In this document: positions 38,811 to 43,128 of the stretch, piece after piece | Layout of the letters: every line of letters starts with the position of its first letter | Numbering within the stretch: position 1 is the first letter of the stretch | Origin: an uncultured Hellea sp. | GTDB taxonomy: Bacteria; Pseudomonadota; Alphaproteobacteria; Caulobacterales; Maricaulaceae | Assembly: GCA_905477785.1 (NCBI GenBank) | Contig: CAJQGR010000019.1 | Span: 1-50,023 of the forward strand | Direction of reading: 5' to 3' | Length of the DNA stretch: 50,023 nt | Notes under the pieces: generated by a model | Databases searched by the model: none | The model's input: only the letters and a program-made list of their open reading frames with translations | What the model was told of the DNA's origin: nothing | Position numbers and translations under genes: made by a program

Positions 38811-39590
38811 TTAAGTTCTTGCAACCATCATTTTTTTAACTTCTGCAATAGCCTTTGCAGGGTTTAGGCCTTTCGGACATACATTCGCGCAATTCATGAT
38901 TGTGTGACAACGGTAAAGCTTAAAAGGGTCGTCAAGTTTTTCTAAGCGTTCATTTTTAGCATCATCCCGACTATCAACTAACCAGCGATGAGCCTGCAAT
39001 AGAGCCGCAGGGCCTAAATATCTATCACCGTTCCACCAATAAGATGGGCAAGACGTTGAACAAGATGCACACAAAATACATTCATAATAACCATCTAATT
39101 TATCTCTATCTTCTATTGTTTGAGTCAATTCCTCAGTTGGAAGTGGAGTAGAAGTGTGAAGCCATGGTTCAATCGAAGCGTATTGATTGTAAAAATTTGA
39201 CAAATCAGGAACTAAGTCACGTACAACAGGCATATGAGGCAGTGGTGAGATAGATATACTTTTACCTGATACATCTTCTATAGCTTTGGTGCAGGCAAGT
39301 GTATTACGACCCCCAATATTCATTGCACAGGAACCACAGACGCCCTCCCTACAAGACCTACGGAAGGCTAAGGTTGGATCTATTTCATTTTTAATTTTAA
39401 AAAGTGCATCAAGCACCATTGGTCCACATGCATCTAAATCAATGTGGTACGTGTCCCAATAAGGATTACTTCCGTCTTCAGGATCATAACGATAAATTTT
39501 GAAGGTTTTAATATTTTTCCCAGTAGCATTAGATGGCCAGTCTTTACCCTGAGCTATCTTAGAGTTTTTAGGAAGCGTAAGCTGTACCAT
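38811..39590 (-). CDS. sdhB: succinate dehydrogenase iron-sulfur subunit
   Basis: This 259-aa subunit carries electrons from FAD to ubiquinone in complex II. All cluster ligands are present: [2Fe-2S] Cys80, 85, 88 and 100; [4Fe-4S] [12 protein letters not shown] (171, 174, 177) and [3Fe-4S]-related Cys181, 228, 234 with Cys238. The quinone-site residues are also kept: Trp in PSYWWN and His229 in RCHTIMN. It is separated from sdhA by a crotonase gene and has its own 125-bp upstream region, so it may have a separate promoter. Confidence 0.97.
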
Positions 39591-39715: not shown

Positions 39716-40540
39716 TTATTCGTTGCACTTCCTATCTGAAAATCTTGGAGGCCTTTTCTCTAAAAAAGACTGCACCCCTTCTGCACAGTCTGCACTAGAA
39801 AAAGCTTCACTTAGCATTTCACTCTCTATCATATGCAAATCAAAAGGTCCCTTACCAAGCATAGACTGCCTCAATAGCTTTTTATTGTTAGATACACTAG
39901 TCGGAGAGCAATTAACTGCAATATCTCTGGCTAATTCAAGAGATCTTGTGAGCACGTCTTCCGGCTCGCAAATTTCTGAAATTAAACCACCCTCTAGTAA
40001 TTCTTGGGCCATCATAATGTTACCCTTTAAAATCCATTCATTTGCTTTGGAATAACCAACAAGTTTAGGTAGGAAAAAACTGGCTGCACCATCAAAAACA
40101 ATTCCACGACGTGCAAATGGAAAGGCAAATTTTGACTTTTTAGACGCAATTCTTATGTCCATAGCTAAAGTCATAGTTGCGCCTATCCCTACAGCTGCAC
40201 CATTTATGGCAGCAATAATTGGTGTATCACAATCGAATATTGCTAAATTTAAAATGCCTCCAGCGTCTCGGTTTATACCATTGACTGCATCAGCACCCAT
40301 GCCGCTATCTAAGTTTGCTCCGCCAAAACCTTGACTAATATCTGCGCCAGCACAAAATGCTCTTCCTGCACCTGTTACAATAATTACTCTTACAGAAGGG
40401 TCTTTATCAGCCGAAACAATCGCCTCCAGAAGCGCAGAGTGAAGTTCTATATTGTAGGAGTTCATTGTCTCAGGTTTATTCATTGTGAGAACAACAACAG
40501 AAGGTGTCTTCTGATCTCTAACAGAAAGTACAAGGGTCAT
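39716..40540 (-). CDS. enoyl-CoA hydratase/isomerase family protein (crotonase)
   Basis: This 274-aa crotonase-fold protein has FCAGADISQGFGG (oxyanion-hole loop) and NGAAVGIGATMTLAMDIRIASKKSKFAFPFARRGIVFDGAASFFLPKLVG. Glu of the classical first catalytic site is Thr here (GATMTLA), as in a known subgroup; at the second site an Asp (FDGAAS) stands where I expect Glu (PEAAS). The reaction therefore may not be simple hydration. The ATG at 40540 is chosen, with AGGA 7 nt upstream. It lies between sdhA (73 bp) and sdhB (125 bp) on the same strand. Confidence 0.87.
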   Translation of the reverse strand: MTLVLSVRDQKTPSVVVLTMNKPETMNSYNIELHSALLEAIVSADKDPSVRVIIVTGAGRAFCAGADISQGFGGANLDSGMGADAVNGINRDAGGILNLAIFDCDTPIIAAINGAAVGIGATMTLAMDIRIASKKSKFAFPFARRGIVFDGAASFFLPKLVGYSKANEWILKGNIMMAQELLEGGLISEICEPEDVLTRSLELARDIAVNCSPTSVSNNKKLLRQSMLGKGPFDLHMIESEMLSEAFSSADCAEGVQSFLEKRPPRFSDRKCNE

Positions 40541-40616
40541 CAAACAGTCCTTTTTTTAGTGTCCAACCTTATAAAAATCGAACAAGGGAAAATATATATT
40601 ATTTTAGCCAGAAAAC

Positions 40617-42401
40617 TTAATATACTCTTTTCTTTGGCTTAATATAATCTATTCCATCAGACATAGTATATTTATGAACAGGACGATAATTAATTTTAAC
40701 CTTGTTCTTCTCAGAATCATACCAAGCAAGAGTATGTTTCATCCATTTCTTATCATTACGGTCTGTATAATCCTCGTGGGCGTGTGCACCACGTGATTCT
40801 TTTCTATTGTTTGCTGAGGCCATAGTCACCATGGCCTGACAAATTAAGTTATCAAGCTCTAGAGCCTCCATAAGATCGGTATTCCAAACCATTGTCTTAT
40901 CAAAGACTGCTATATCCTTAATAGAATGAGCAATATCTGTAATTTTTTTTACTCCCTCTTCCATACTATCTTCGGTACGAAAAACAGCGCAATGCTCTTG
41001 CATGGCTTTTTGAAGCCGCAAGCGAATTTCAGATGTTTTCTTGGAACCATTAGCAGCTTTAAACCTATCAAGTCTCTCCATTGAAGCTGCACCAGCATCT
41101 TGAGCAAGCGGCTTTTGCTTAGCATTAGCTTTAACTGTTTCGCCACAGCGCATACCAGCTGCTCGGCCAAATACTACTAAATCAATTAAGCTGTTTGAGC
41201 CCAGGCGATTTGCACCATGAACGGATACGCATGCTGCTTCTCCAACCGCCATTAACCCTGGAACTATAGCATCAGGATCTTTGCCTTTTTTTGTTAAAAC
41301 CTCACCATAGTAATTAGTCTGTATACCACCCATATTATAATGACATGTAGGAAGAACGGGTATGGGCTCTCGAGTTACATCAACTCCGGAGAAAATCTTA
41401 GCAGTCTCTGAAATACCTGGTAGCCGAGCCGCTAAAACTTTTGGGTCTAAATGATCTAAGTGTAAATAAATATGGTCTTTATCCTTACCTACACCTCGAC
41501 CTTCTCGAATTTCCATAACCATAGCACGGCTAACCATATCGCGTGGTGCAAGGTCTTTGACACTAGGGGCGTATCGTTCCATAAAACGCTCACCTTCTGA
41601 ATTTGTTAAATAGCCGCCTTCTCCTCTTGCGCCTTCGGTGATTAGACACCCTGCTCCATATATACCAGTGGGATGAAACTGAATAAACTCCATATCTTGC
41701 AAAGGCAAACCTGCTCTGAGAACCATAGCATTACCATCACCAGTACATGTGTGAGCAGATGTAGCACTAAAGAATACTCTTCCGTAACCACCCGTTGCTA
41801 AAATAACTTTTTGCGATCGGAATCTATGTAATGTTCCATCATCTAACTTCCAAGCGGTTATGCCTCTACAGACACCATCTTCCATAATAAGGTCCAAAGC
41901 AAAATACTCGATGAAAAACTCAGCTTCATTACGTAATGATTGTCCATATAAAGTATGTAACATTGCATGACCTGTACGATCAGCAGCAGCACACGTTCTT
42001 TGAACTGGGGGTCCTTCACCAAATTCTGTTGTGTGACCACCGAAAGGTCGCTGATAAATCTTACCATCTTCATTACGGGAAAATGGCATTCCCCAATGCT
42101 CTAATTCATAAACTGCTTTTGGAGCTTCTCGACAAAGATATTCAATGCTGTCCTGATCCCCAAGCCAGTCAGAACCCTTAACGGTATCATACATGTGCCA
42201 TCGCCAATCATCCGGTCCCATATTACCCAAAGATGCAGCTATTCCACCTTGAGCTGCAACGGTGTGGGAGCGAGTAGGAAACACTTTAGTTACACAAGCT
42301 GTTTTTAGTCCCGCCTGAGCCGCACCCAATGTCGCTCTCAGGCCAGATCCACCGGCTCCAACAACAACAACGTCATATGTATGATCTATCCATTTTGTCA
42401 T
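40617..42401 (-). CDS. sdhA: succinate dehydrogenase flavoprotein subunit
   Basis: This 594-aa catalytic subunit oxidises succinate to fumarate. It has the FAD motif [12 protein letters not shown] (12-23), the covalent-FAD His46 in [10 protein letters not shown], the active-site region [21 protein letters not shown] and the C-terminal [16 protein letters not shown]. The length is normal. It follows sdhD by 6 bp in the sdhC-sdhD-sdhA order. Confidence 0.98.
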
Positions 42402-42407
42402 TGTTCT

Positions 42408-42737
42408 TTATCCTAGAATTAGTCTTGTGATAGTGTTCGCTACTGTAAACCATACGATCAAGGCGACTAATCGGTTGACGATTAAAGATGTTGAGCGCAA
42501 TTTTCCATCAAAATAGTCAAGTATTACCTCATCAAGCTCTAACTTGCAGTACCATATTGCTGCAGTAAAAAAGGCTAAAAAACCAATGCCGCCAACAGGG
42601 TTAGAAAGCCAAGTGGTAAAACCTTGTGAACCTCCTTTTATAGCTTCAACTGCACTGAGAAGAACTAGAGGTAAACTTATAATAACCCCATAACCAACAT
42701 ACTTGTGTAATTTATTATGTATAGAGTTTTTCGACAC
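42408..42737 (-). CDS. sdhD: succinate dehydrogenase membrane anchor subunit, lacking the heme-ligand histidine
   Basis: This 109-aa anchor has three membrane helices (about 15-31, 48-66 and 83-108). It aligns without gaps to the family around the second helix: AAIWYCKLELDEVILDY. The quinone-site Tyr75 (DY) is present, but the heme-ligand His, 12 residues before it, is Tyr63 (codon TAC at 42551-42549). The usual Gly at that helix face is Glu67. The start is a GTG with AGGAG upstream. It lies 10 bp after sdhC and 6 bp before sdhA. Subunit identity is firm from position, size and topology. Confidence 0.93.
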   Translation of the reverse strand: MSKNSIHNKLHKYVGYGVIISLPLVLLSAVEAIKGGSQGFTTWLSNPVGGIGFLAFFTAAIWYCKLELDEVILDYFDGKLRSTSLIVNRLVALIVWFTVANTITRLILG

Positions 42738-42747
42738 TTTTTATCTC

Positions 42748-43128
42748 CTAAACACTCATTGATAATATGCAAAAAGTCCAAATTACGGAAATAATTATTA
42801 TCAAATAAGATAGAATATTATTTTTAATTGGATCCATCATAAACCCCTTATCCCAGATGGCGTGTCGTACTTGCGCTAAGGCCATAAACATAAATGAAAA
42901 AATAAATATCCCAAAACCAACAAGACCAACCGGACTAAAAACAATAAACTCTAAAGGCAAACTCCCTTTTAATGATAAGTAAAAAATTCCAAATGAAACT
43001 ATTATCAGCCCAATGTAAGCAACTATAGAACTGACACGATGAAGAATTGAGCTTAACATAGCAGGATGCCATTTCCAAATTTGCAAGTGAGGCGCCATGG
43101 GGCGCTTATCATTCCATTGAGCTGACAT
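42748..43128 (-). CDS. sdhC: succinate dehydrogenase cytochrome b556-type subunit, lacking the heme-ligand histidine
   Basis: This 126-aa anchor has three membrane helices. The N-terminal HLQIWKWHPAMLSSILHRVSS is standard, and Ser27 and Arg31 of the quinone site are present. In helix 2 the family pattern YHxxxGIRHxxWD reads FMALAQVRHAIWD. The axial heme ligand His is Met82 (ATG at 42885-42883), the glycine is Gln86, and the propionate-side His89 is kept. It is the first gene of the sdhC-sdhD-sdhA group and is divergent from def. Confidence 0.94.
   Translation of the reverse strand: MSAQWNDKRPMAPHLQIWKWHPAMLSSILHRVSSIVAYIGLIIVSFGIFYLSLKGSLPLEFIVFSPVGLVGFGIFIFSFMFMALAQVRHAIWDKGFMMDPIKNNILSYLIIIISVIWTFCILSMSV

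Follow-up and report, generated by a model that had tools for sequence, protein, structure and literature searches.

Absence of both heme b ligands from the complex II anchor of the Hellea clade: a probable heme-free type C enzyme in bacteria

It has long been unclear what heme b does in complex II, given that the enzyme of Escherichia coli still works without it. Heme-free complex II as such is already known, from the type D fumarate reductase, from yeast and from two protozoa (PMC10238741, PMC13066397). In E. coli the distal heme propionate is held by SdhD Arg20, SdhC His91 and SdhB His207 and the proximal one by SdhC Arg31 and SdhD Gln78, and complex II without heme still has about half of its activity and allows growth on succinate (PMC3290573). 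The cryo-EM structure of the Saccharomyces cerevisiae complex (PDB 9qdl and 9qdm; 2026) has no heme in its map; yeast Sdh4 carries Tyr108 for the ligand His and Glu112 for the Gly, and Glu112 takes over from a heme propionate in a salt bridge with Sdh3 Arg97 (PMC13066397). The complexes of Tetrahymena thermophila and Perkinsus marinus are mitochondrial type C derivatives which have also been reported to be without heme (PMC13066397). Heme-free type C enzymes are listed in the 2026 yeast paper only for yeasts and some protozoa (PMC13066397), and a search of the open-licence literature brought to light no description of one from bacteria.

The sdh locus of Hellea and its heme-site substitutions

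The window, i.e., the whole stretch of DNA that was analysed, is 50,023 nt long and represents contig C19 of a Hellea MAG (Caulobacterales) with a genome of 1.83 Mb and 97% completeness, the nearest named relatives of which are Hellea MAGs and Hellea balneolensis. The genes for the two membrane anchor subunits, sdhC (42748-43128, minus strand; 126 aa) and sdhD (42408-42737, minus strand; 109 aa), are intact open reading frames upstream of intact genes for the flavoprotein subunit, sdhA (40617-42401, minus strand), and the iron-sulfur subunit, sdhB (38811-39590, minus strand). An enoyl-CoA-hydratase-like ORF (39716-40543, minus strand) lies between sdhA and sdhB. Such an ORF separates the two genes also in loci L048 and L061, and in Hellea balneolensis (L050) it is found downstream of sdhA, where sdhB was not found over the next 4 kb or so. 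By profile scores SdhA and SdhB are ordinary (975.5 bits with TIGR01816 sdhA_forward, cut-off 727, and 381.8 bits with NF004616, cut-off 228, respectively), and SdhB has conserved cysteines and keeps the quinone-site His (E. coli His207) within a YRCHTIMNC motif. SdhC scores 59.0 bits with TIGR02970 (cut-off 52.3) and 59.4 bits with PF01127, SdhD scores 22.8 bits with TIGR02968, which is below the cut-off of 41.8, and a Pfam search of SdhD gave no match; family models and SdhD-based heme predictions (TIGR02968, PF01127) miss such enzymes. A second, heme-type copy of SdhC was looked for in the whole genome and was not found, there being a single Sdh_cyt gene.

The anchor was analysed in an alignment of 97 distinct SdhC/SdhD pairs including the source pair, composed of 39 pairs of a His-less clade and 58 relatives (57 canonical pairs plus the half-lost L083). 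At the SdhC heme ligand His (E. coli His84) the source has Met82 (42883-42885, minus strand), a position with 36 Met, two Thr and one Leu in the clade and His in 58/58 relatives, and the packing Gly (E. coli Gly88) is replaced by Gln86 (42871-42873, minus strand; Gln in 39/39, against Gly in 57 of the 58 relatives). The ligand His of SdhD (E. coli His71; yeast Sdh4 Tyr108) is replaced by Tyr63 (42549-42551, minus strand), invariant in the clade (39/39) where 57/58 relatives have His, and the SdhD packing Gly (E. coli Gly75; yeast Sdh4 Glu112) by Glu67 (42537-42539, minus strand), again in all 39 members and against Gly in 57/58 relatives. On the minus strand 42871-42885 thus encodes SdhC M82-A-L-A-Q86 and 42537-42551 encodes SdhD Y63-C-K-L-E67, within the local sequences F-M82-A-L-A-Q86-V-R-H and W-Y63-C-K-L-E67-L-D-E-V-I-L-D-Y75; the heme-type relatives read YHxxNGIRH in SdhC and YHMRLGLQVVIEDY in SdhD. 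Both axial histidines are absent from 39/39 clade pairs and from 0/57 canonical relatives. These four replacements had been proposed by the sequence-only reading from ungapped alignments, and rereading of the DNA together with the 96 related pairs bears this out, as SdhC 82/86 and SdhD 63/67 fall on H/G and H/G of the relatives with no gaps needed. Its argument against random error also holds, given that the 39 distinct pairs are concordant, which rules out a sequencing error or an oddity of one genome. A ligand His moved to another place was sought by aligning close relatives, and no conserved His is left at a ligand-like place in helix 2 of either subunit; SdhC His30 and His89 and the SdhD His at position 7 are common to heme-type relatives too. 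A half-lost mirror case is seen in a Robiginitomaculum MAG (NORP13; L083:6001-6752), where the SdhC His is kept and its Gly is changed to Asp, while in SdhD the His is changed to Gln and the Gly to Ser.

The catalytic residues had been described as intact and were found to be so: SdhC Ser27, His30, Arg31, Arg88 and His89 and SdhD Asp74 and Tyr75 are kept in 39/39 members, as is SdhD Asp69. The propionate ligands that are kept, namely SdhC Arg31, SdhC His89 and the SdhB His, each serve the quinone site as well. SdhD helix-1 Arg12, which corresponds to E. coli Arg20, is lost, being present in 0/39 of the clade versus 56/58 relatives. Other positions are less uniform: SdhD Cys64 is found in 31/39 members (Ser, Ala or Val in the other eight), SdhC position 93 is Asp in 24/39, Asn in 13 and Gly in two, and SdhD Glu70 also occurs in 12/58 of the His-keeping relatives. 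Yeast has a bond between Sdh4 Lys73 and Sdh3 Asp167; SdhC position 93 was examined as the counterpart of the latter, and SdhD has a conserved Lys or Arg at position 9, three residues before the position aligned to Lys73. Columns conserved in the His-keeping set were lost in the clade in 6/29 cases in SdhC (including the ligand, Gly86 and Gly34), in 6/12 in SdhD (including the ligand, Gly67 and Arg12) and in 5/393 in SdhA, and the change is therefore concentrated in the anchor.

The AlphaFold models (AF2) are of single chains, so that the heme cavity between the subunits lies outside them. The SdhC model (pLDDT 86) matches E. coli and mammalian SdhC, and the SdhD model (pLDDT 92.7) consists of three long helices. 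In the PDB the SdhD model was matched to anchors of complex II, but weakly, every E-value exceeding 0.05. Heme-free yeast Sdh4 (9qdl_D) gave the best TM-score when scored on the query, 0.70, at 16% identity in the fold match. The 9qdl_D sequence (SYHWYMEK...LLGYCYMEFNSCITDYI) reads Y108-C-Y-M-E112-F-N-S-C-I-T-D-Y120, in the same register as SdhD Y63 to Y75. As the bacterial anchor differs from that of yeast in almost everything else, the likeness is best read as convergence. The architecture is that of a type C anchor, with two membrane subunits of three long helices each which match SdhC and SdhD chains in the PDB, SdhD falling below the TIGR02968 cut-off, and the type C quinone site is conserved in full (SdhC Ser27/Arg31, SdhD Asp/Tyr, SdhB His). 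The two His that hold the one heme b of type C, one from each subunit, are gone here, with Met82 and Tyr63 in their place and His in 0/39.

Lineage history and recurrence in the Alphaproteobacteria

Across 137 genomes of the family the SdhC matches separate clearly into one group of 50-80% and another of at most 44% identity, the one exception being an end fragment of 31 residues. The His-less group includes, by name, Hellea (with the type strain), Algimonas arctica and Litorimonas cladophorae, together with many marine MAGs; the His is kept in Maricaulis, Henriciella, Caulobacter and Phenylobacterium. SdhC/SdhD without the His group together in a single clade (100/100), the stem of which is long, at 1.14 changes per column; this indicates that the change happened once here, and the His-less anchor has been retained over at least six genus-level groups. 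Eight close pairs show purifying selection on the anchor (dN 0.02-0.25 versus dS 0.3-3, with one pair saturated). The RpoB organism tree does not unite the His-less carriers in a single clade (AU p 4e-6), and simple vertical inheritance along that tree is thus ruled out. Genus g18 contains both kinds of anchor: its members L070 (His-less) and L085 (His) are sisters in the SdhA tree (100/100), with SdhA 93.5% identical, SdhC 43% and SdhD 33%. Near-identical SdhA beside such divergent SdhC and SdhD indicates that the anchor genes were exchanged next to a conserved sdhA, and the same pair of sequences would imply that one soluble part works with both kinds of anchor.

A saving of iron or heme in seawater had been put forward as a possible benefit. 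This is not supported, in that the source genome retains ferrochelatase, cytochrome b and COX1, and a marine habitat is shared by Maricaulis, Henriciella and Robiginitomaculum, relatives which keep the His. The presence of the same three genes rules out a lost heme synthesis as the cause.

Other cases were looked for in a class-wide sample that was followed into the weakest-, mid- and some top-scoring genomes, and in this sample, weighted towards weak scorers, 147/163 alphaproteobacterial loci giving both subunits (two of the Hellea clade among the 163) were canonical H/G/H/G. Outside the Hellea clade one or both axial His are missing from eight loci of seven lineages, and sdhA adjoins all eight (69-82% identity). 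The SdhC ligand is Tyr in L172, L173 and L174, with the SdhD Gly changed to Glu, and also in L184/L185, where both Gly are Glu; L212 has Tyr as the SdhD ligand, with Gly changed to Ser. Both axial histidines are also lost in L181 and L283 (genomes G222 and G365, of 1.2 Mb each), by different residues: Tyr in SdhC and Val in SdhD of L181, with the SdhD Gly changed to Glu, and Gln in SdhC and Phe in SdhD of L283, with the SdhC Gly changed to Glu. Asp or Glu is present at a packing-Gly position in 6/7 His-losing lineages versus 3/153 loci with both His (Fisher p 2.7e-8, phylogeny ignored). It should be noted that L166, L216, L307 and L179 keep both His and have Asp, Glu, Arg, Val, Ala or Ser at packing-Gly positions. 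On balance we lean towards heme-free type C complex II being recurrent in the Alphaproteobacteria, having arisen several times by one rule, in which the axial His is lost and a carboxylate at the packing-Gly site stands in for a heme propionate, with the anchors acting as interchangeable modules.

Interpretation and comparison with described enzymes

We consider it very likely that the Hellea enzyme is a heme-free derivative of type C complex II, active and ubiquinone-reducing, with carboxylates in place of the heme propionates. As in E. coli, electrons would travel from FAD along the three Fe-S clusters and reach a quinone held by SdhC Ser27 and Arg31, SdhD Asp74 and Tyr75 and the SdhB His. 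The heme cavity would be filled by the side chains of SdhC Met82 and Gln86 and of SdhD Tyr63 and Glu67, which would also join the two subunits, and by analogy with yeast SdhD Glu67 would pair with SdhC Arg31 (yeast Arg97), replacing the propionate and keeping the quinone site in shape. SdhD Glu70, one turn past Glu67, may assist, since positions 63, 67, 70 and 74 would lie on one face of the helix. An active Hellea enzyme would be expected from the activity that E. coli retains without heme, and its activity is probably normal.

Loss of the ligands alone is no proof that the heme is absent, given the axial-ligand mutants of E. coli: heme is retained in these according to the title of Maklashina 2001 (cited in PMC3290573), and the PDB match 2WU2 is a crystallised E. 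coli SdhC His84Met variant, so that Met at the SdhC ligand site need not exclude heme. A heme b still bound by Met82 and/or Tyr63, an uncommon pair of ligands with which its potential would be shifted, would agree with these mutants, with the conservation of Tyr63 (39/39) and Met82 (36/39) and with the three of five propionate-network positions that are unchanged (SdhC Arg31, His89 and SdhB His). We nevertheless hold it to be improbable, as Thr or Leu occupies SdhC 82 in three members, which is how a packing residue, rather than a ligand, would be expected to vary, the porphyrin-packing glycines have given way in every member to Gln and Glu, both of them larger, the SdhD helix-1 Arg is lost throughout, and the yeast enzyme, which shares this Tyr and Glu, is heme-free (PMC13066397). 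The sequence-only reading had offered a natural complex either heme-free or Met/Tyr-ligated; the former is favoured and the latter has become the less likely, in view of the variation at position 82 and the filling of both glycine sites. For the lineage as a whole, the heme-free reading is well supported at the level of sequence by clade-wide conservation, loss of the propionate-binding Arg and the residue match to yeast.

That some other cofactor or a lipid sits in the heme cavity in a structural or redox role has precedents in an unassigned cofactor-like feature of class D enzymes, e.g., E. coli fumarate reductase (PMC10238741), and in yeast complex II, where a phospholipid is buried deeper in the core (PMC13066397), and SdhD Cys64 is common in the clade (31/39). 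We give another occupant very little weight, however, because Cys64 is Ser, Ala or Val in 8/39 members, the corresponding yeast Cys109 has no role (PMC13066397) and no new conserved metal-ligand pattern is seen; a lipid in the cavity would be compatible with the heme-free reading. A degenerate anchor in an operon heading towards loss of function might be suspected from the divergence of SdhC and SdhD, which is much faster than that of SdhA, and from the stem of 1.14 changes per column. It is scarcely credible for a single-copy operon in otherwise aerobic genomes with SdhA and SdhB intact, invariant quinone-site residues, low dN/dS and retention over at least six genus-level groups.

If the heme-free reading is true, a whole bacterial lineage lives without heme b by the same replacement chemistry as yeast, and the related heme-type and heme-free anchors on near-identical SdhA offer a natural comparison. 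As the Hellea-clade anchor is without both ligands and has Tyr and Glu as in yeast, the purpose of the heme becomes testable in culturable bacteria, type strains of the clade being in culture (Hellea balneolensis DSM 19091, Algimonas arctica KCTC 32513 and Litorimonas cladophorae KCTC 23968).

Among the described systems, the canonical bis-His heme b type C enzymes (E. coli SdhCDAB, 1NEK; mammalian) share with the Hellea clade the two three-helix anchors, the quinone-site residues and the same SdhA and SdhB, whereas the clade is without both heme ligands, both packing glycines and one propionate Arg, and Hellea SdhD falls below the family cut-off. Type D (E. coli FrdABCD) likewise has two anchor subunits and no heme (PMC10238741) but belongs to the fumarate reductase family, unlike Hellea SdhA, which scores 975 bits with TIGR01816 (cut-off 727) and fails fum_red_Fp TIGR01176 (525, cut-off 933). 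The Tetrahymena and Perkinsus complexes are highly divergent protozoan enzymes, set beside Hellea by description. The heme-free type C enzyme of yeast is alike in Tyr108/Tyr63, in Glu112/Glu67 four residues on, in the Cys beside the Tyr, in the quinone Tyr 12 residues on and in the kept Arg97/Arg31. It differs on the SdhC side, where yeast keeps His156 and the bacterial clade has Met (Thr, Leu) at this position and Gln at the SdhC glycine, so that the Tyr-His hydrogen bond of yeast would be absent from the clade.
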